Assembly (NCBI GenBank): GCA_914767715.1
Contig: OU612065.1
Span: 37,944,001-38,008,000, forward strand
DNA: 64,000 bases
DNA from: Membranipora membranacea
Lineage: Eukaryota; Bryozoa; Gymnolaemata; Cheilostomatida; Membraniporidae
Direction of reading: 5' to 3'
Shown: positions 7,725-64,000 of the stretch, piece by piece
How positions within the stretch are numbered: position 1 is the stretch's first letter
How the letters are laid out: every line of letters starts with the position of its first letter
Made by a program: the position numbers and the translations under genes
Notes under the pieces: generated by a model
What the model saw: the letters and a program-made list of their open reading frames with translations, nothing else
Database searches by the model: none
What the model was told of the DNA's origin: nothing

Positions 7725-18899
<11,175 letters not shown>

Positions 18900-20824
18900 A
18901 CATTGTGTGTGCACAGCGCTGTATGAAAGGGGGGTGTGCTGAGCGCGTGTCACTCTATTGGGTTTTTGAGGGGCACTTGGCGCATTGATCTCTGACTGTA
19001 AAAACCTGTGCACCTCAGTTAAACCTTCATATGATTAAAATAGATTGCACTGGAGATTCCTTTGTATTGCATTATGGGAACAGTGTCCTGAGCATTGCAT
19101 TATGGGAACAGTTACATGAGTATTTCATTATGGGAACAGTTTGACAGCCCCAACAAGCACCTGCTTGTATATATTTTAAGGCTTAAAATAATTATTATGT
19201 TATCATAGAGATGTATTCAATGTTGTTGCAAAAGTCATGAATAAGTTCACTATATGGGACATTGAAAATGAGATAATATATTTTTGTCAGTTTTTGCGCT
19301 CTTTTTTTGCCAAATTATCACGTTCAACATAATTTTTCGATTCCATATTATTAGCTGTATGCTTATTTTAATTGTTCACGGCAACGTGCACTGGCCTACC
19401 AATTATTATTAATAATTGCACGCTCATCACAGATAGCACCTTTTCCTTAGCATGCAGTCTTTATACCACACAAGCTGTAAATTAGCTGGATGAGACTGAC
19501 CATTTGTTTGAAGGAATGACAGCCCGTTCCCTACAGAGGAAACATTATATATTTATTATAGGTGACCATTTCTTTGCAATACCAGATCAAAATAGGTCTG
19601 TTCATCTACTCTAGTGTTTACATATAGATATGCAGTATATAGTGTTGATGAAGCCTTTTTTTCTTATAAATACAAAATCAAGCCGTGCTACCATAAAGTT
19701 TAATTTTATTTTTGCATCCGGTATCAGGGATAAAAATGAATGTATACAACATAGGGTAAAGAATGACCAAGATTAATTGATATTAAAATTTGAAATGTGA
19801 AAAGAGATTGGCACATTCTTTGGATTAATTACAGTTTTAGCCTTTAAATTAGTAGTGGGAACGTTGTACAACAATTCTTAAAAATACGATCACAAACAGG
19901 GTGTGTTGGATCCTCAGCTATTTTCATCAAACGCCTCTAGCTCAGTTCACACGTCTTCACCATTTAGGATGGTAATATGGTCTTTGCAACTGACCTTGTA
20001 TTCCTTCCATGTCATAAGTAATCCAAGCTGATGCAGTGGAAGTGATTAATGAACAGATAGTGGCACTGCTGTTGCTCCTTGGTGGTACTAATCTATATGA
20101 ATAAACCAGTAGTGTACATGGTTAGCATAACAGAAAAGTCTATTTAGTTGACCTGGATATAGTGTGTATCTCTGTATTGTGATAGTGAATTTAGTCTGAG
20201 TACCATTTGCGTACCGGCCCCTTACTCTAGAAAATATCTTCATGACGTCACACCTCATTACTAGATTTACATGCAATAGTATATATATCATGATATCACC
20301 ATAATATACTAGCCTGGGCAGGCTAACCGTATACGCTTCCTGATTTCTTATCGTTGACCTTACCGTTTCAAATCCTGTAGCTTAATACCACATGAGTCAC
20401 TGAATGAAAGATAATCGGATAAAGACAACCCACACAAAATAACAGTCGTGCATTTGGACCAGTTGAGACCGTGTTGGCAGGGAGGGCGCCTGTCTCAAAC
20501 TCCTTAGTGGTGATTTGTGTTGTAATGGAGTAGTCTCCTCGTGTTTTGAGAAAACTTCTCTTTGCCATGTGGCCCCCTTCAAAAACGCAAAACATGTGTT
20601 GAGGGGTCTTATTGGTCAATAAATGGATCATTTAAAGATAGCCTCGGTTTCCAAAATGTTAATTTACATTTCTTAGAAATATCATATGCTTACAGTTTGG
20701 TACAACCAATTTTAAGGGTCAACACGCTAACATCATTGTGAAAGGGCATAGCCGCGAAAAGAGCTGTGGAGGGAAAGTTTAGTCCAATATTTTAAAGATT
20801 TTGTTTTCGAGTGATATCATCAGT
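18900..20824. other. Ligase 3'UTR and intergenic region
   Basis: No coding exon is seen on either strand. Three 28-bp direct repeats built around CATTATGGGAACAG lie at 19066-19139, probably within the 3'UTR of the ligase gene. I found no clear AATAAA close to the stop. The promoter and any non-coding first exon of the zinc-finger gene would lie in the right part. Confidence 0.45.
19066..19139. repeat. 28-bp direct repeat, three copies (last partial)
   Basis: Units start at 19066, 19094 and 19122 and share the core CATTATGGGAACAG. They lie about 170 bp after the ligase stop codon. Confidence 0.85.
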
Positions 20825-23183
<2,359 letters not shown>

Positions 23184-27619: not shown

Positions 27620-28489
27620 AAGCTTTATCAAGACATGCTATGTGGTATTGTACATTATCATTTGCTGCTGGACTGGATACATGACTTCCTGTGTAACCGA
27701 TCGCAGACAGTGGTGCTGGATGGAGCTAAATCTTAATCCATTCCACCCAGTGACATCCGGAGTCCCACAGGGGTCGATGTTGGGTCCAGTGTTGTTTTTG
27801 GTGTATATCAACGATCTCCCCAGTCATGTTGATTGCTCTGCTGGCCTATTTGCTGATGATACCCTGATGTACCAAAATGTAGACAACACAAATGATGAGA
27901 GATTTCAAGCAAACTTGGAGTCACTGAACACCTGGGCTAAAACCTGGGGGATGAGTTTTAATGCTAAGAAGTGTAAGATTATTGCCTTCCATCCCCAGAG
28001 AACAGTCCCAGAGTACACTATGGACAATATAGTGCTGGAGCAAACAGATCACTGCAAATACTTGGGAGTGATACTGCAGTCAGATCTAAAGTTCACTGAC
28101 CACATAGCCGACAAAATCTTCAGCGCCTGTGCCTGGGATCCTTCCACAAAGAGGGAGATCGAGGCACTCGAGATTGTGCAAAGCCAAGGTGTGAGAATGA
28201 TCTGTGGATTGAAGGGGAGGAGAGGTGTTACGGAAGCAAAGGAGAAATTGCAGCTGGAACAGCTAGTTATTCGGCGGAAGAACTCCAGGGTAAAGCTCCT
28301 ACACAAGGTACTGTCAAGAGAGGAGGCCCACCCTGCACTCTGCACATCCTCGATGAAATAATAAACCAGCCCCATACTACAGTCTCGACAAGATCACAAA
28401 CACGGAACGAGCCACGCTCTATCGCTGCCACAGGGAACTGTTTTCATAACAGTTTTCTACCCCGGACAATATGGGATATGAAAATCTAA
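27620..28489 (+). pseudogene. Decayed LINE (CR1/jockey-like) reverse transcriptase, C-terminal half
   Basis: The longest frame (about 27735-28361) carries the non-LTR retrotransposon signature SGVPQGSMLGPVLFLVYIND followed by the catalytic FADD box (27849-27860) and NAKKCK. Upstream, DWIHDFLCNRSQTVVLDG is readable only in another frame, so a frameshift lies near 27735. A second shift near 28340 is needed to continue into the family's usual ending, NSFLPRTIWDM, which stops at 28487-28489. Between DHIADKIFSACA and WDPSTKREIEALE a block of several tens of residues usually present in these enzymes is missing, so there is also an internal deletion. It is a 5'-truncated, dead copy. The endonuclease domain is absent. 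Confidence 0.85.
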
Positions 28490-30021: not shown

Positions 30022-31172
30022 ATGTATGAGAGGTTGTTTGCCGACCGAACAATGGATCCAAACACATCTGGGACTACAGACAGCATCAATTCAGCTTGCA
30101 CCCCTATAATATCAAGAAAGGTATGAGCCTAGCATAAACTCATAGAGGAAAGATTTGACGGACATAGTAGCTGGTACATGTGTGGTCTCAGGCATATACT
30201 AGTCCCTACCTGTGCACTCTGAGGTTTGGTGCATTGATTTTTACATCCTAATCTGTTCAGTAGTTCTTCCCAATCTCATTATGACGCACAAACATGCCTT
30301 TCATCATTTAAACTACAAAATAAAATTAGCTTATGAAAAATATTTGCTTTGCATTACAAACTGATATGCATTTTTTGTATTCGTGTGCATGTATTTTATA
30401 TTCCTCGAGTAAAAAGGTTCAATATTTGGCAAAAATTTCTGATTACTTCTATATGTATATGTATATATTTCTTATATTCCTGAGCAGAACAAGTTAGTTC
30501 CGTGTGTGGTGAGAGAGTGATAATGCAAAAGTCAGGTATTCATACACACAGCTTTAAAAGTTTTTATATTGCCTGATGGTGTTTTTGTTGCAGAGAAAAT
30601 CCCTTGGTCTGGGGTTATCAGCTGGTTCGGCCAAGAAGAAATCGGGTTTTCGGACACCATTTAAAAGTTCTGTAGACAACATAGTACCAAACTCCACATC
30701 ACAAACCAGCTGTAGTACACCACAATCTGTAAGCCTGCTAACTGCAGAAGACAATGCAAATTTAAATGCACCTAATCATTCAACAGATTGCCCAAGTAAA
30801 CCCTCTACTGGTGAAAGTGCCAGCACCCCAAAGTTATTGCAGAAAAAGTCTTTGATAAGAAGAAATTTCAAATTGCCATTTGTGTCCAACTCAACCGCAA
30901 CGGCTGCACAAACGGATGAAAAGGTTATTATGGCCGAAAAACTCACCGATGCAAAAGAGGAGCTGAGGAGGTTAAAGTTGGTAGAATATCACAGAAAGCA
31001 CAATGATCTCTCCACACTATCACAGCTTACAGAGAAGTGGAGAGAAGCCGGACATCAAGCTCTGCATGAGCTACACGACCGCATTCATTGTGAACCTAAA
31101 CCTACCAAGGAGGAACTACTCCAGCAACTACGGATACCATTAGAACATTTTAATTGCGATTGTGATGATTGA
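30022..31172 (+). CDS. SFR1: SFR1/MEI5 homologue, recombination mediator, 215-225 aa
   Basis: Two exons: 30022 (or 30052)-30120 and 30594-31172, joined in phase 0. SFR1 with SWI5 forms a complex that stabilises RAD51 filaments in homologous recombination. The N-terminal part holds the family motif FRTPFKS, seen in SFR1 proteins, within a Ser/Thr-rich disordered region. The C-terminal part has the SWI5-binding coiled-coil helix: EELRRLKLVEYHRKHNDLS, a stretch with LTEKWREAGHQALHELHD, and a short ending with EELLQQLRIPLEHF. This order and spacing match vertebrate SFR1 as I know it. Two in-frame ATGs (30022 and 30052) are possible starts; neither is decided by the sequence. An AATAAA at 31241-31246, about 70 bp after the stop, is a good polyadenylation signal. 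Confidence 0.85.
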
Positions 31173-35499: not shown

Positions 35500-43116
<7,617 letters not shown>

Positions 43117-44142: not shown

Positions 44143-47100
44143 TCACAAATATGTTTTCACTGGAAGGTTGGCTTCCTTGCGTATTTCTTCAATCCAGGAA
44201 TACATTTCATCGACACTATCAAACTAAAACACACTCATCATTAAGAACAAAAAAAAAACAAGTGAACATTGAGCATTGAGGATTATAGGCCAGCCTTAAA
44301 TATATATTGTGGCCATACAGTTTAAAAGTATCCATATGTATCCAGCATCTTCAAAGTAGCTCAGATATCGAATCTTATTAGCAGTTCTCAATGAAATAGG
44401 TGGTAAACGTGCTTTATAGCTAAAATATGTTTCCTAGACAGAGGGGGGGGGGTGTACCTGTGACAGGCAGAGACCAGTGATGATTATAGAGGGGGGGGGG
44501 TGTACCCGTGACAGGCAGAGACCAGTGATGATTATAGGTTGCCAAAACTTCCTTCTCAAATGGAATGCTCACACCCAAACCTAACTCTATAAGCGCTGGA
44601 TCTTTGATTAGCTAAGTAAGAGAATTAACGTACCTGCATATAAAAAGTTCTGCTTGGAGTGATGATGTCCATTAGATTACTTCTCACTGAGGCGATCTCT
44701 CTGAAATGTTTTAAAAATTATATTTTATCGAGAATACCTCCGAAAGATATTCAGGATACTGGCAAATATCACAACTGTTGGTAATAACTCGGACAAGAGT
44801 GTTAGGTTTGTGGAATTAGTTTACTACGCAGTTACTGTTGGTGATTGTAAACAGTCAAGCAAAAGAGATGCTTAAACAATCTGACATTTTAGTTTATCTT
44901 CTCACAAGTCTGATCTGATTAAGGTAAAACCATGGTGGTAAGTTTTCAGACGAACCTTTATATTGTGCACCAACAGTGTGTCAGAAAGATATCATTGGAT
45001 TCACTTACCCATCTGATTTCTTACAATCTTTAACTTTATTCAGTGATACAGATTTGAGAGGTTTAGCTGCCTAGAAATATAAATAATATGATCAAATTAG
45101 GAGCCATTCTGATAAGTAACATAGGGGCAATGAAAAACATATGTGCACTTGATTTTTTATTGTGTTATAAAATTCCTAATGACAGAGCGGAGCATCATGT
45201 CGATGGACCAATTAAAAACTAGTGACACACAAGAGAAGACAACACTGTTGAAGTTTGACAGGTATATCATTATTAGTATTATACATTTATATCGGCACTG
45301 GATGTTTAATAGGCTGGTAAAGATCCTCACAAATTCATTTTTATAGTATGCAATATCCTTTCCAGTTAGCCGTAGAAATCTTCTCTTCCAATTTTTCATC
45401 TGCAAATAAAACATTTTACTCAGTTCTCCTGTGAACTTAACTTGGAAAGTTGGGGTACTGAGCAATCGGAGTAATGAAATACGAGTTACGAGGACCACTA
45501 TAACATTATTCACCATTGCTTCACAGCACAAATTCCAAAATAGCCACAGATGACTCTGTAATAAGGTAATTGACCATGTCATCAAGTTCTAGAGTAAACG
45601 TGTGTAGGTCATTAGTAACTACTTCCTTCCTAACATTTATAGCGTAAAGCCGTCACAACGAATCATGCTAGTAATTAAGTTTCACACATAATTTGAATTT
45701 ATCATGACAACAGTGAATCACCGTGTACCCCATCTGCTATCTACATATTGATAGATAAAACAAACACTCTTGTATTCCCATATCTCTATATATTACTAAT
45801 ATATACCCTTGCTTCTATATATATTACCAACACATACCCTAGCTCCTATATATTACTAATACATACCCTTGCTCCTTGTTTGACACAGTATCCAGATTTA
45901 ACGATGACTCGATTATCAGCTGAGGGTAGAAAGTTTAAGCTGTCAGCTGACTGATGATCTGATGACTCAGACTCATTACTAGAGTTACTTGGCTCTCTCT
46001 CTTCTTCCTCCTCACATAAATCTGACTCACTTATCTAAATATGAGATCATAGTGTCATCAGCTGCCGATCTCACTTAGACAGCGTGGTGTCACCATATGT
46101 AACTGTTGTATTATATATCTTGGTTTTAATTAAAGGTGACATTTACACAATCTAAATAGCAAGATTGCACTGAGAATGACACATGGGTTCAGTGGAGTAA
46201 GTTAAAATACCTAAGCTATGAGGCACCAATTGCTCGCAACTTTTTTGTGTGGTAATAGCAACCACACATTTTTACACCCTGCTGCATAATTTTCTGTGTA
46301 TTCAGTCTTTTTATCAAGAATAATAATATTGTATGCACACGAAAAATATGTCAGCCTTTTCCGTTGATTAAAATCGACTCAACGAAAAGTTTGGAGACAA
46401 TGGACTCACTTGATCGAGAATTGGCGTCTGTATAACCTTGCCACCGATTACTGTTGCCTCATAACTGCCGATGATTGAGACTCTATCAGGATTGAGTTGA
46501 GCAGTACTCACCTACAAAGATTGATGGGACACAAAGGCTTTTAACACATTGGTTTACAGCATGGATACTAGGCCATTACTCTGACTAGAGGTAGTTTTAA
46601 AACAGGTATTTTAATTATTCTGTAATTTTAATTTTTTGTAAGCATTTTTTAAACATTGCCGTCACACCACCAAACACACTGAACCAACAAAATCTGCTTT
46701 CAGTTTAGATCCACAATTACATTTGAGCAAGGGTCGAAGTTACATCCAGGTTCATTTCACCCTGTTGGGTAGACTTTTCATTAACAGCGTGTATGGATTT
46801 TTGTTTGAATCCTCACTCCCACCTAATAAAAATTCTTCAATCCAAATGATTTTCATATCCCTCTTCGGTTTAAAACCAGTATTTAAATAAATTAGCATTA
46901 ACTTTTCAGCTTGATGAGCCTAATCACCATAATGGAAGTTTTATGCTTGGCTTGATTCAGCTATGAGTATGACTCACGTTTATACGAGAGCTCTGCTTGA
47001 TGCAATGTATCCAATCTTCCATATCTCTCCACGATTCGGCGGCAAAATGAGTTATCTTAGCCAAGGAATGTACCGCTATAAACACACAAACATACCCCAG

Positions 47101-48864: not shown

Positions 48865-51800
48865 ATGGCTGAGATTTTGTTGGATCCTAATATCAGATTT
48901 TGGGTATTTTTACCTATTGTAATCATAACTTTCCTTGTAGGGGTCATCAGGCATTATGTGTCAATGCTTCTGCAATCAGACAAAGTAGTAGATAAGCAAG
49001 CTTTGCAAACAAGGTAGGTCAAACCAGTATTTTTCATGTTTGATTGCTCAAAAATAAATTTTGTTTTTCAATTTCATCAATTCATATATTTGCCATTTCT
49101 CTGTCTTTGTTCATCTTTTATGTTTACTGATGGCTAAGAAGAGGGTTCAACGGTTTATCAAAGATTGAAAGTCATTATCTCAATCAATACATGGAGAGTA
49201 AAGAGGCTAATAAAGAGTATGAATGATGATAGTCACTTAGTCATCACAGACCGAAATCAAAAAAGAATTTATTCTCTTTGTCACTGTGACTGCCAGCTAA
49301 AGCTGCATGTAAAAAAACCTGCTCTTACCTGTTTTGTTGAGACCCCGGTTATTTCTGCTACATAATGATTCAGTTCTTAGGCCTTAGGTTGAGTCCATTG
49401 CGGCATTTTATCCGGAAGTTCCCTTTTACTCCCTGTTACTAATGATACTCCTATTCAAGTAGATGGCTTCTCCTACATGATAGTGTGAATCTATTATCCG
49501 ACCTGTCAAGCAAAGATAAAGACACACAGCAAATAATATATTGGGATTGGTTTGTTATTAGTTGTATTAAGGATTAGAAGGTGTAGGCCCTACGCATTGT
49601 TACAATGAATTTTGCCGTCACTACTCAGTTTAATGTTTACTTATCTCTTGTATGAATTGACTATATTTATTATTTCAGTCAAAGTTTGATGAGGAGTAGA
49701 GTGTTGAGAGAAAATGGCAGATATATTCCTGATACAGTGAGTAGACCAGGCTGAGGCAGCCACGATGTATATCATTCTTGTAGCAGGGAGAATGGAATTC
49801 TCCCTGCTTGAAGGAATCATTAAATTTGTGTTCCAAATAAGCTCTTTTTGTTTCATTTATACCCTTTATTGGCTGTTCAGTGCAGTGCAGACCAACAAGA
49901 ACACGCAACAATGAAATGAAAAATATACTGATATGAAGCCTGTCTTGATAAAGCTTTTCAAGACAGGCTAACTGATATGGTGATTGCAAGGAAAAGCTTC
50001 AAAAAGTCTGGTTAGGTTTTCCATAAACGAAAATGCTGGGTGGCTGTATCCGTTATGCTGAAGCTGAGTGTACATGAGGGAGATAAAGGTTGGACAACAA
50101 AATCACAGTGCAAATGAAAACATGCCAACTTAACAAATTGCATTTGAATATTAAAATATGTCATAAGGCTACACATTTACTTTTGTTACAGGCTTTTTAT
50201 GCTAGAAAACAATTTTACAATGATAAAGAGAAGGGATATTTTACACTGAAACAGAAAACAACGGAAACTCAACAGCCTAAAAATCCTATGTCTGGTCAGT
50301 ATATACGGTGACTTTTGCTCAGAATGTGCAGTGTATCCATGCGTACACAACGCAATACACAATACAAATGGTACTGATGTAGTATTTATCAGAATTAGAC
50401 TTGCCTTCCCTCAGCTTTGTATATTGTTCCTCAGATGCAATAAATCATAAAATTTAAGGCGCCCTTGGTTTGAAGTCACAATTGAATTGGCATAGTTTTG
50501 GCCGGAGCTATCACTTCATTTGATTGATTAACTTATGGACACCCTTTAAAACCTTGCTAGAGATATACGGACTTGATGAAATTTGAACACATTCTACCAT
50601 TATATATTACACTTGGAATATTATAAGCTGTTATAAATTACATTATAAGCATATTGTTATTATACTGGACCAATCTTTTCACTCAGATCCATCAATGATG
50701 ACAGACATGATGAAGGGTAATGTAACTAACATGTTACCGATGATTGTTATCGGAGGCTGGATCAACTGGGCTTTCTCTGGATTTCTCACCAGTGAGTTAT
50801 TTAGGGGCTCCTTAAAATACACTGCTCGACTTTATGCGTATTACAAATTAGCGCATGTATACTTTGCTGTAGCTGCAATGGTTTTGAGTCCTGTCAGGGC
50901 CACTTTTGGTGTAAGAAAGAGTTTTTGAGTTTGTGCTACATCTCATTGGCTATGTATTTGTTCTAACTAAATGGTTGCGTTAACGCTCTACTATCAACGA
51001 AGTGTGGCAGTTTCGGTCACTTATGCCCTTGTGTTCCCATGACATTTGTTATAATTTTGTAGCCAAGGTTCCGTTTCCTCTAACACTGAGATTTAAGGAG
51101 ATGTTACAGCGCGGAGTTATGTTACCTTCTCTCGATGCTGCCTGGGTCAGCAGTGTATCCTGGTACTTCCTTAATGTGTTTGGACTGAGAAGTGTCTACT
51201 CTCTAATACTCGGTCAGGACAATGGTAAGTGTCTACTCTCTCATACTTGGTCAGGACAACGGTAAGTGTCTACTCTCTCATACTCGGTCAGGACAACGGT
51301 AAGTCTCTACTCTCTAATACTCGGTCAGGACAACGGTAAGTGTCTACTCTCTCATACTCGGTCAGGACAACGGTAAGTGTCTACTCTCTCATACTCGGTC
51401 AGGACAACGGTAAGTGTCTACTCTCTCATACTCGGTCAGGACAATGGTAAGTGTCTACTCTCTCATACTCGGTCAGGACAACGGTAAGTGTCTACTCTCT
51501 CATACTCGGTCAGGACAACGGTAAGTGTCTACTCTCTCATACTCGGTCAGGACAACGGTAAGTGTCTACTCTCTCATACTCGGTCAGGACAACGGTAAGT
51601 GTCTACTCTCTCATACTCGGTCAGGACAACGGTAAATGTCTACTCTCTCATACTCGGTCAGGACAACGGTAAGTGTCTACTCTCTCATACTCGGTCAGGA
51701 CAACGGTAAGTGTCTACTCTCTCATACTCGGTCAGGACAACGGTAAGTGTCTACTCTCTCATACTCGGTCAGGACAACGGTAAGTGTCTACTCTCTCATA

Positions 51801-54800
51801 CTCGGTCAGGACAACGGTAAGTGTCTACTCTCTAATACTCGGTCAGGACAACGGTAAGTGTCTACTCTCTCATACTCGGTCAGGACAACGGTAAGTCTCT
51901 ACTCTCTCATACTCGGTCAGGACAACGGTAAATGTCTACTCTCTCATACTCGGTCAGGACAACGGTAAGTGTCTACTCTCTCATACTCGGTCAGGACAAC
52001 GGTAAGTGTCTACTCTCTCATACTCGGTCAGGACAACGGTAAGTGTCTACTCTCTCATACTCGGTCAGGACAACGGTAAATGTCTACTCTCTCATACTCG
52101 GTCAGGACAACGGTAAGTGTCTACTCTCTCATACTCGGTCAGGACAACGGTAAGTGTCTACTCTCTCATACTCGGTCAGGACAACGGTAAGTGTCTACTC
52201 TCTCATACTCGGTCAGGACAACGGTAAGTGTCTACTCTCTCATACTCGGTCAGGACAACGGTAAGTGTCTACTCTCTCATACTCGGTCAGGACAACGGTA
52301 AGTGTCTACTCTCTCATACTCGGTCAGGACAACGGTAAGTGTCTACTCTCTCATACTCGGTCAGGACAACGGTAAGTGTCTACTCTCTCATACTCGGTCA
52401 GGACAACGGTAAGTGTCTACTCTCTCATACTCGGTCAGGACAACGGTAAGTGTCTACTCTCTCATACTCGGTCAGGACAACGGTAAGTCTCTACTCTCTA
52501 ATACTCGGTCAGGACAACGGTAAGTGTCTACTCTCTCATACTCGGTCAGGACAACGGTAAGTGTCTACTCTCTCATACTCGGTCAGGACAACGGTAAGTG
52601 TCTACTCTCTAATACTCGGTCAGGACAACGGTAAGTGTCTACTCTCTCATACTCGGTCAGGACAACGGTAAATGTCTACTCTCTCATACTCGGTCAGGAC
52701 AACGGTAAGTGTCTACTCTCTCATACTCGGTCAGGACAACGGTAAGTGTCTACTCTCTAATACTCGGTCAGGACAACGGTAAGTGTCTACTCTCTCATAC
52801 TCGGTCAGGACAACGGTAAGTGTCTACTCTCTCATACTCGGTCAGGACAACGGTAAGTGTCTACTCTCTCATACTCGGTCAGGACAACGGTAAGTGTCTA
52901 CTCTCTCATACTCGGTCAGGACAACGGTAAGTGTCTACTCTCTCATACTCGGTCAGGACAACGGTAAGTGTCTACTCTCTCATACTCGGTCAGGACAACG
53001 GTAAGTGTCTACTCTCTAATACTCGGTCAGGACAACGGTAAGTGTCTACTCTCTCATACTCGGTCAGGACAACGGTAAGTGTCTACTCTCTCATACTCGG
53101 TCAGGACAACGGTAAGTGTCTACTCTCTCATACTCGGTCAGGACAACGGTAAGTGTCTACTCTCTCATACTCGGTCAGGACAACGGTAAGTGTCTACTCT
53201 CTAATACTCGGTCAGGACAACGGTAAGTGTCTACTCTCTCATACTCGGTCAGGACAACGGTAAGTGTCTACTCTCTCATACTCGGTCAGGACAACGGTAA
53301 GTGTCTACTCTCTCATACTCGGTCAGGACAACGGTAAGTGTCTACTCTCTAATACTCGGTCAGGACAACGGTAAGTGTCTACTCTCTCATACTCGGTCAG
53401 GACAACGGTAAGTGTCTACTCTCTCATACTCGGTCAGGACAACGGTAAGTGTCTACTCTCTAATACTCGGTCAGGACAACGGTAAGTGTCTACTCTCTCA
53501 TACTCGGTCAGGACAACGGTAAGTGTCTACTCTCTCATACTCGGTCAGGACAACGGTAAGTGTCTACTCTCTCATACTCGGTCAGGACAACGGTAAGTGT
53601 CTACTCTCTCATACTCGGTCAGGACAACGGTAAGAGTCAATTCACACGGCTAACAATAGATGCATTATGCTACACTAAAAAAACTATCTACCATAGATAA
53701 AAAGATAAAAAATGCCGCCAGTTGATACATTAACACTACTTATTGAGAATATGAAGATTCTCAGAAGACTTATGTTTGCTATATATCTGTAATTGCAGTA
53801 GGGTAGGTCTGTCTTCTTATTTCCATTACTCTGTAGGTTTGAATAATTAATAGATTGGTGGGGATTCAGTGTACATTTATTTTAAACATTTTCAACCATT
53901 TTAAAGAACATCATTGACTGCGGAGAGAATTCTGTGTCTTATATTGGATTACCACTTGAGCAGGGAAATGTTTTCAGCTAACTTGTTGCACTCTTTTGGA
54001 TATTAAATCATAACTGGTTATATTTGATATATATTAACAGCTGCTGACCAGACAAGAGCTATGCAGGATCAGTTTACAGGAAATGCTGCCGCGATGGCTC
54101 AGCAGGATCCTAATAAAGCATTTAAGGTCAGTCTTGTATCCATCACTGTACCAGAGTGCTGGCTCAGATCCAGTCAGTATTTGTCTCAGATAGTGGGGTG
54201 GACCACCAAACCCTCTTGAAGATTCAGATACTGGCCTGCCAACTACCAAGTATTTTCACTGTCACTCTAAAAGCATACATAAAATTGAAAGTGGAACCAG
54301 CAAAGCTAGTTAGCTTCAAAACAAGCCCAGAGCTGAACCCCTTGAGTCTGGAACCACCAGAAGCTGAGTAATGAGGCATTGAGGGCAACCCTATCAATAT
54401 TTGCTCGCGAGAATGCCTTGATGTAAGGTCACATCAGGATTTCTCATAAAAATTGGGCTTTTTTGCTTATGGAAGAAACAACGTGAAAACAAGTTTTTTT
54501 TCAACCTCAGAATGTGGGTTAATCTGCTTCAATTTTTTGCATTGGAATTATCTGTTTGATGGCGCGAGCTTCATTTGAGTTCAACTTGTTTCATCCAATT
54601 TTGTCGAAAATACAAGACTCCACAGTTATTATAAGCAAAATCTATGTTTGCGACAACATATCCCCCTATCTAGGCTGGCGAGCGTCAGAGAGGCCTTACT
54701 TTAATAAGCTGTAACTTAGGCCTAGTTGCCCAATTGAGCTGTTTTTGGGCTCATTTCAAAGTTTATTAACTGGAGAACTACCACTATTGATTTTAAATTT

Positions 54801-55243
54801 CATGGATGCTGTTGTTGCAGAGACTCGAAGGATGCTATTGTGGCATCTCCCCCTCGTCAAAGTAAAACACCCTGGCTGTTACTTTATGTCGGTTGATAAT
54901 GAATGTTGATGTACTAGAATAGGCCTATTGAAGTACAGACAATAAGGATTTTGCTAAGAGATCATCATGATAGTTGCAGTGATGAATGTAGGCACCTATC
55001 TCTCCTTTCATATTGCTGACACTTTTTTCGATTAAAAAATTATGACATGACTGGCTCTATGGGTTCACAGGTAGAAAGCCCAATTTTGGTTGTTTCCTTA
55101 CTCATTTTGACCTTCCTGTATTTTGTACTTTCTAGGCAGAGTGGGAGGCTTTAGAGATGTGTACTCATAGATGGGCACTCGATGGAGCAGTAAAAGAAGT
55201 ATTCCCAACGAATAGTCCCTCATCGACATCAGTGATCGGTTGA
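48865..55243 (+). CDS. EMC3: ER membrane protein complex subunit 3, 256 aa, seven exons
   Basis: Core subunit of the EMC insertase (Oxa1/YidC superfamily), which inserts tail-anchored and multi-pass proteins into the ER membrane. Exons: 48865-49013, 49679-49736, 50192-50294, 50687-50791, 51063-51224, 54041-54126, 55136-55243; phases agree and the frame ends in TGA. The N-terminus [20 protein letters not shown] enters the first membrane segment (about 12-30), followed by [13 protein letters not shown]. Segment two is about 120-138 ([16 protein letters not shown]) and segment three about 169-188 ([17 protein letters not shown]). These match human EMC3 (261 aa) closely. The C-terminal cytosolic tail is shorter and ends TSVIG, without the long acidic/KEL end of vertebrates. 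The donor after exon 5 is the first unit of a 66-copy repeat, so correct splicing requires choosing it among copies. AATAAA at 55406-55411 is a likely polyadenylation signal. Confidence 0.96.
51192..53633 (+). repeat. 37-bp minisatellite, 66 copies, made of the EMC3 exon 5 end plus its splice donor
   Basis: The first unit is the real exon end, from GTGTCTACTCTC through CTCGGTCAGGACAATG, followed by the intron start GTAAG. The same block, with AACG for AATG and usually CTCATAC for CTAATAC, then repeats at exactly 37 bp. The first and last units start at 51192 and 53597, a distance of 65 full periods, so no unit has gained or lost a base. Sequence variants among units are few (GTAAAT for GTAAGT, GTCTCT for GTGTCT, CTAATAC for CTCATAC). 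Since 37 is not a multiple of three, all frames of the array are equivalent and each meets TAA once every three units. Confidence 0.97.
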
Positions 55244-62560: not shown

Positions 62561-62836
62561 CCAACACAAAGCCTGCAGACTAAAGCTATGGATATTGTTT
62601 ACATGAGTCACGAGTATATACCGTAAACATTTAAATACAATAATTAGACTTGCATGATCATGCAATTTATATCAGCAGAAAAATTCTTCTCTAGATAGAG
62701 TAAGTAGAGAAGAAAACGATATCCAGCAATAACCGCCCAAGTTGTTTCTGAACATCCTATTCAATCTCAAACCGTTGCGTCATGGGACAGGACAAGACAG
62801 GAGGAAAAACTACTTAGAGTAGATTGGCGCGTTGGG

Positions 62837-63035
62837 CACCCTGGGACTTCCTCACTGCTGTGGGGCACCCTGGGACTTCCTCACTGCTGTGGGGCACCCT
62901 GGGACCTCCTCACTGCTGTGGGGCACCCTGGGACTTCCTCACTGCTGTGGGGCACCCTGGGACTTCCTCACTGCTGTGGGGCACCCTGGGACCTCCTCAC
63001 GGTTGGGCACCCTTGGACCTCCCCACGGCAGCAGC
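62837..63035. repeat. 29-bp GC-rich minisatellite, six to seven copies
   Basis: Units start at 62837, 62866, 62895, 62924, 62953 and 62982, and contain CACCCTGGGACTTCCTCACT. The last units are truncated and diverged. Open frames across it on the plus strand (reading WGTLGPPH-type repeats) are by-products of a short stop-free unit. Confidence 0.9.
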
Positions 63036-63143
63036 CTTGATGAGCTTGTGAGGTACCCAATCAATGGGTCACGTTTAATGATTTTTTGGATTAAAATATG
63101 TTTGTTTTCTTCCCAGGCCAATAAAGAGGAAATTAATACTAAG

Positions 63144-63259
63144 TGATCTTAGGGAGGATAGTCACATTGAGTCGATCTTAGGGAGGATAGTCACATTGAG
63201 TCGATCTTAGGGAGGATAGTCACATTGAGTTGATCTTAGGGAGGATAGTCACATTGAGT
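63144..63259. repeat. 29-bp minisatellite, four copies
   Basis: Four near-identical units containing GATCTTAGGGAGGATAGTCA; one C-to-T change separates the third copy from the others. Confidence 0.95.
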
Positions 63260-64000
63260 CGGACATTCTAACCACTGCTAATGACCTAGCTAGTGAATCA
63301 CCACTCCCACAACATGATCCACCCCATTTCGATACGGGCTAACATGACAGACGAATGAGCTGAAATCACAGGCATATCCGAGGCTAAAAGCAGTTAACGA
63401 TCGGTCCCTGTGCAAATATGGTCAGTGTGACAGGGAAGGGTAAATCTGACCCTGAGCGCTGATTACTTATCAACATACCGGCCATCACACTGGAGTACCT
63501 GTGAGCACCGAGCGGAGCACAAACAAACGCTGTGATAGGAAAGTAAATCAGTCTATGAAGTGGAGGACTAAAACGAAGACAACAACAAACGAGCGGAGTT
63601 GGTCTGACTGATGTGGTTTACTTCTCTCAGAGTATAATTGTTTTGTTTTGAGCAGATAGCGATCCCCTACTGAGCATAATTATGGCTTTGAAGACGTAGA
63701 AGAAGAGGCTGCAATTAAACTAACATGAATGAAATAGTGATCATCATCATATTTAGAACACGGCTCTGGCCTTAGTGTCAGTGGCATAAAAAATACTATG
63801 ATGTTGTTTTAAGGTTCCTTTCCCTGGGGCCTCCACTCTACATATCGGATTTTTGTTCAAAATTTTAATTTATCGAATCTGAATCATAAAACATCTGAAA
63901 TCTCAATTTGAAATTTCTTGAATCTATGATTTCAAATCAACTGCACAACTAACTAGGATTGAATATACCCGATAGTGATTTAGCCTAGAACAAAGGATAA

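Follow-up and report, generated by a model that had tools for sequence, protein, structure and literature searches.

A 66-copy tandem repeat of an exon end and splice donor in the EMC3 gene of the bryozoan Membranipora membranacea: probably a recent, neutral boundary minisatellite

Introduction

How does a gene keep making its full-length protein when the end of one of its exons, together with the splice donor, stands 66 times in a row? This question is raised by a stretch of 64,000 nucleotides (nt) from the bryozoan Membranipora membranacea (GenBank assembly GCA_914767715.1, contig OU612065.1, positions 37,944,001 to 38,008,000 of the forward strand), hereafter the window, to which an earlier note made from the sequence had drawn attention. 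The gene is EMC3, which is essential in other animals, and its intron 5 opens with an array of near-identical competing donors. Here, we report the structure of this array, the gene model around it, the fate of the reading frame for each class of donor and a database protein that corresponds letter for letter to splicing at the first donor. The array is likely a minisatellite of the type termed 'mirage' in amphioxus, expanded by tandem duplication, mostly neutral and tolerated, with the 5'-most donor being the one used. Minisatellites at exon-intron boundaries have been known from amphioxus and from human factor VII, and the present case extends them to a bryozoan.

Results

The array consists of 66 head-to-tail units, each exactly 37 nt long (AAGTGTCTACTCTCTCATACTCGGTCAGGACAACGGT), at 51190-53631 on the + strand and with no insertions or deletions. 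Tandem Repeats Finder (TRF) called 51190-53638 as 66.2 copies with a score of 4751, well past chance expectation. The array is known from one assembly, and the repeat search covered the 64-kb window. The earlier note had placed the array at 51192..53633, within two bases of the measured position, and its count of 66 copies was exact. It had also described the unit as an exon end plus splice donor, which was borne out by one GT donor per unit and 66 GGTAA in register (1 authentic donor and 65 competitors). The tandem units comprise the end of exon 5 and the start of intron 5, the anatomy of a boundary minisatellite. Identical units number 49 of 66, and the differences amount to 20 of 2442 bases (0.8%), confined to five unit positions. 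There are eight unit types inside the array, and the flanks are unique and clean; in the single allele available, units 1 and 2 each have a variant found in no other unit, and the last whole unit has the consensus sequence. Most donors read GTAAGT (61), while four are GTAAAT (units 12, 20, 24 and 40) and the terminal one is GTAAGA (unit 66).

51190..53631, + strand: array, 66 x 37 nt, one GT donor each (unit alignment, TRF)
51225..51230, + strand: donor 1 (GTAAGT), in use as judged from database protein P0097 (see below); U1 duplex -11.0 kcal/mol
53630..53635, + strand: last donor (GTAAGA), perhaps the ancestral intron 5 donor; U1 duplex -8.2 kcal/mol
53632..54040, + strand: unique remainder of intron 5, acceptor AG at 54039-54040

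Elsewhere in the window the best ungapped match to the 31-nt unit core covered only 19 of 31 positions, and no exact match to the unit was found among viral contigs, from which records of the source genome were possibly omitted. With no other good copy in the window and no exact viral match, a mobile-element origin was dropped. Searches of Rfam at gathering scores and for transfer RNA genes gave 0 matches each.

The host gene was modelled as seven exons on the + strand with a single open frame of 256 codons, its coding exons spanning 6379 nt of the genome. The product matches the Pfam family EMC3_TMCO1 (E 1.2e-55) and human EMC3 structure chains (E 2.3e-106 for chain 6ww7_C, over residues 3-244 of 256); judged by these matches the host gene is EMC3, and both this identity and the exon 5/6 junction hold as first proposed. 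Intron 5 occupies 51225-54040 and measures 2816 nt, the other five introns 271-1009 nt.

48865..49013, + strand: EMC3 exon 1, coding part (gene model)
49679..49736, + strand: EMC3 exon 2 (gene model)
50192..50294, + strand: EMC3 exon 3 (gene model)
50687..50791, + strand: EMC3 exon 4 (gene model)
51063..51224, + strand: EMC3 exon 5, whose final 35 nt make up the exonic portion of unit 1 (gene model)
51263..51265, + strand: in-frame TAA for transcripts from donor 3 or later (translation)
54041..54126, + strand: EMC3 exon 6 (gene model)
55136..55243, + strand: EMC3 exon 7 through the stop codon (gene model)

Translation donor by donor gave the full 256 amino acids for donor 1, in agreement with the earlier view that full-length EMC3 depends on the first donor. 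Donor 2 leads to a stop in exon 6 after 206 residues, and all later donors for which the product was computed (3-8 and 64-66) stop at TAA 51263 after 205 residues. Since this TAA sits in unit 2, transcripts from every donor from the third onwards are stopped there. The expectation that every frame would meet a TAA within three units, the first at about 51263, is therefore correct for donors 3 and later, whereas donor 2 meets its stop only past the junction. The full protein is obtained from no donor other than the first, so the 65 extra ones cannot serve as backups; the backup-donor idea is ruled out, and with it the 'splicing buffer' that had been suggested.

The donor in actual use is indicated by a database protein, P0097, which is identical to the 256-residue model letter for letter (sources jgi and lgn; its entry comprises two sequences, and the single listed contig is 1123 nt long). 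A contig of 1123 nt is far too short for a coding span of 6379 nt, and the sequence behind P0097 must therefore lack introns, with exon 5 ending at donor 1. This implies that spliced RNA uses donor 1, as a qualitative statement at the protein level that carries no percentage, and at that level the check on complementary DNA that the earlier note had proposed is passed. The translation of the array in the exon-5 frame was present in 0 of 336 proteins (96 exon-5 hits, the best 120 of 1339 EMC3 matches and the best 120 of 1330 GOT1 matches), and no truncated near-identical EMC3 protein was seen among the matches listed (best 120 of 1339).

These two negative results bear on an unproductive-splicing rheostat, in which splicing of some transcripts at donors 2-66 would end translation after 205 or 206 residues and send the RNA into nonsense-mediated decay, the length of the array tuning EMC3 output. 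Every alternative donor does lead to an early stop that is followed by one or more exon junctions, and GTAAG is kept by 61 of the 65 competitors. The absence of corresponding proteins counts against the rheostat, although weakly in both cases, as decay products are expected to be rare and are perhaps hidden by clustering. We consider the rheostat unlikely. Quite unlikely, too, is its heritable extension, according to which array length would be a fast-mutating dial: every donor gained would make the loss of a transcript to nonsense-mediated decay slightly more probable, the EMC3 dose of colonies or cells would vary with copy number, and boundary minisatellites would be used or tolerated genome-wide in bryozoans.

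Why should donor 1 be chosen? Pairing with U1 was computed with the 5' end sequence of human U1. Donor 1 forms a duplex of -11.0 kcal/mol; 56 of the 65 others reach -11.2, one is equal and eight are weaker, at -9.3 (three GTAAGTCT), -8.2 (the terminal GTAAGA) and -5.5 kcal/mol (the four GTAAAT). The other donors of EMC3 range from -5.7 to -10.3 kcal/mol, and 58 of the 66 array donors form a stronger duplex than the best of these. The predicted unpaired probability is lowest at donor 1 (0.0040, against 0.0043-0.0264 at the others, median 0.0064). By these values donor 1 is favoured neither by U1 strength nor by openness, which leaves position as the main remaining cue, and we infer that position decides donor choice at EMC3 exon 5. 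The locus thus offers a sharp natural test of 5' splice-site order versus strength, with 65 downstream donors in near-identical context, 57 of which equal or exceed the authentic one in U1 pairing.

The strong pairing of the 58 array donors, and the presence of 61 GTAAGT in intron 5 with none in the other five EMC3 introns, would also suit a U1 sink or polyadenylation guard, where many U1 sites hold the U1 small nuclear ribonucleoprotein on the intron and suppress premature cleavage. However, the only A(A/T)TAAA signal of intron 5 is located close to the 3' end of the intron, outside the array. There is therefore nothing obvious for U1 to guard, and such a function is highly improbable.

A second boundary repeat was found in a GOT1-like gene of the same window, which has 8 exons, encodes 411 amino acids and has a coding span of 7617 nt.

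37667..37775, + strand: GOT1-like exon 3, its end duplicated along with the donor
37753..37815, + strand: tandem duplication across the donor (2.2 copies of a 28-bp unit), which puts donors at 37776 and 37804

Use of the second donor of this exon would add 28 nt, followed by a stop. The database protein P0217 is identical to the 411-residue model and its longest contig measures 1805 nt as against the 7617-nt coding span, so donor 1 appears to be used in GOT1 exon 3 too. There are accordingly two boundary minisatellites within 64 kb. Of the 13 donors of EMC3 and GOT1, 2 fall inside tandem repeats; the binomial P of ~0.03 was calculated post hoc with a hand-summed repeat length and is not claimed as enrichment.

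The second repeat also bears on whether the EMC3 array could be an assembly artefact, the true locus having one or few copies. Tandem arrays are error-prone, and the copy number comes from a single assembly. Against an artefact stand the lack of indels, the internal variants of eight unit types, the clean unique flanks and this smaller donor-spanning repeat nearby; we regard it as very unlikely.

The acceptors of the two genes were likewise used to assess whether each unit might combine a GT-AG mini-intron of 30 nt with a microexon of 7 nt (GACAACG), the array being removed stepwise or adding in-frame inserts of 21 nt. Every unit does have a CAG after a pyrimidine-rich stretch, and in a small matrix built from the 13 acceptors of EMC3 and GOT1 the array CAG outscores one authentic acceptor, that of exon 4. 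Among 3856 AG sites in the window, however, the common array CAG variant is equalled or exceeded by 51% and the best variant by 36%, whereas 10 of the 13 authentic acceptors are in the top 3.01%. The array CAG is ordinary by this measure, and microexon or recursive splicing, which is barely credible, was dropped.

Relatives were examined by reading past the end of exon 5. Among the 96 exon-5 hits, 35 matched the pattern for sequence running beyond the exon end, 4 of them staying coding and 31 entering the intron. No second copy of the EMC3 exon end was found in these 31 relatives, 20 of which could be read for at least 13 residues, enough for one unit. In P0022, exon 5 is identical at 53 of 53 residues and 54 residues can be read onward; in P0077 it is identical at 41 of 41, with 59 residues onward; both have a different intron start. 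Among the EMC3 matches listed (best 120 of 1339), the closest with a species name is from Lineus longissimus at 69%, ranking behind P0098 at 86%; no bryozoan name was visible in the same list. The exon of the 86% relative is represented by P0023, readable for only 6 residues past its end, and we infer that P0023 and P0098 belong to the same species from their equal exon-5 differences (both 51/53). For GOT1, the closest named match among those listed (best 120 of 1330) comes from Watersipora subatra, a cheilostome bryozoan, at 74%. With 0.8% difference among units and no second copy seen in the relatives read past the exon end, the array looks recent and lineage-specific.

Discussion

The array of EMC3 is best accounted for as a mirage-type minisatellite whose origin may be outlined as follows. 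A tandem duplication would have copied the last 35 nt of exon 5 and the first two nt of intron 5, giving the 37-nt unit, which slippage or unequal exchange would then have expanded to 66 copies. The present donor would be a hybrid of two intron bases followed by coding sequence, by which GTAAGA was turned into the better GTAAGT, the ancestral donor perhaps being the one that now stands last. Exon 5 may be defined from its own acceptor and body up to the first good donor, either during transcription or by scanning in the 5'-to-3' direction. The 65 donors farther downstream would be passed over and removed together with intron 5. If splicing takes the 5'-most donor in this manner, the array is tolerated and mostly neutral. 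The EMC3 array is thus probably a recent, neutral mirage, a reading that leaves room for a regulatory role.

Several observations weigh against this account or limit it. The picture rests on one assembly and on a search limited to the window. P0097 is known as a protein and not as a nucleotide contig, and a processed retrocopy would look alike; moreover, the protein database is clustered at 90%, and minor isoforms could hide within the P0097 cluster. A matrix of 12 donors (the other EMC3 and GOT1 donors) scores donor 1 at 11.96 bits versus 11.69 for the common array donor, and this lead of 0.27 bits leaves room for a small effect of strength. Nor is the upstream donor always favoured in competing pairs, as SRSF1 is described as favouring the intron-proximal donor (PMC5585400). 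Finally, unit 1 begins with the exon word AAGTGTC, the last donor is followed by the intron word AAGAGTC, and both lie where the duplication would join; in a control, shared exact words of at least 7 nt occurred at 1069 of 1900 random positions. Such words being common, microhomology was dropped as proof of origin; the short anchor appears compatible with the duplication route and is not evidence for it.

Repeat copies in human factor VII intron 7 number 5-8 in people. These 37-bp repeats are described as highly homologous, with the authentic donor in the first and only the most upstream donor used (PMC6627357). The likeness to EMC3 lies in the use of the most upstream of near-equal donors, which for EMC3 is a qualitative result at the protein level; the equal unit of 37 bp is taken as coincidence, the gene is a different one, and the two were likened by description. 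In the factor VII pattern, loss of donor 1 would lead to exon skipping or the use of downstream sites, and the reading frames of EMC3 predict no rescue by its later donors.

In amphioxus, mirages are minisatellites at exon-intron boundaries with regular splicing and instability in length, the unit measuring 10-72 bp for Adh3 and 150-160 bp for globin genes (PMC3087553), and further cases are troponin C and PGBD5 (PMC3902484). Traits of the kind also include concerted evolution within a cluster, from which the boundary units are exempt, and length polymorphism or somatic instability. The EMC3 array is like the amphioxus cases in that the repeat spans an exon/intron boundary and duplicates splice sites, has a unit inside the Adh3 range, keeps regular splicing (here at the protein level) and is found in a genome with more than one affected gene. 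Unlike them, it is from a bryozoan and has 66 near-identical copies, BflGb6 having 6 and 3 per haplotype. By its anatomy and the splicing seen at the protein level, the EMC3 array appears to belong with the mirages and to be extreme in copy number. With amphioxus (PMC3087553, PMC3902484) and factor VII (PMC6627357) as precedents, it was too strong to call such an array in an essential gene unexpected. Human segmentally duplicated genes offer a further parallel, as minisatellites with units of 30 bp on average and ~4 copies at exon-intron boundaries are described as altering introns (PMC2812944). Those repeats are often in alternative transcripts or new introns, whereas no alternative EMC3 product was seen. 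In a literature search for such a case in Bryozoa, the word 'bryozoa' was absent from the matches listed.

Other features of the window

Further tandem repeats were noted. At 11315-11389, four perfect 19-bp units each have CAGTAAG following a T-rich stretch, ~120 nt beyond a WW-domain exon recognized by eye; an open reading frame (ORF) at 11021-11236, in another frame than this exon, had no Pfam match. Two distinct 29-bp arrays with 6.8 and 4.0 copies are located at 62834-63026 and 63145-63261, with ~120 bases between, and the ORF at 62708-63037 over the first had no Pfam match. At 44440-44537 there is a 48-bp duplication that is nearly perfect and has a run of G.

Domains were also recognized in other parts of the window. 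A WW domain at 11791-12327 and a HECT domain at 18127-18474, both on the + strand, perhaps belong to a single NEDD4/ITCH-like ubiquitin ligase. Two ORFs at 20783-21625 and 21717-22088 gave weak C2H2 zinc-finger matches under the Pfam curated cut-offs. An ORF at 27621-28358 has a reverse transcriptase domain and may be a retroelement remnant or copy, and the ORF at 30558-31169 contains a Mei5 domain (double-strand break repair).

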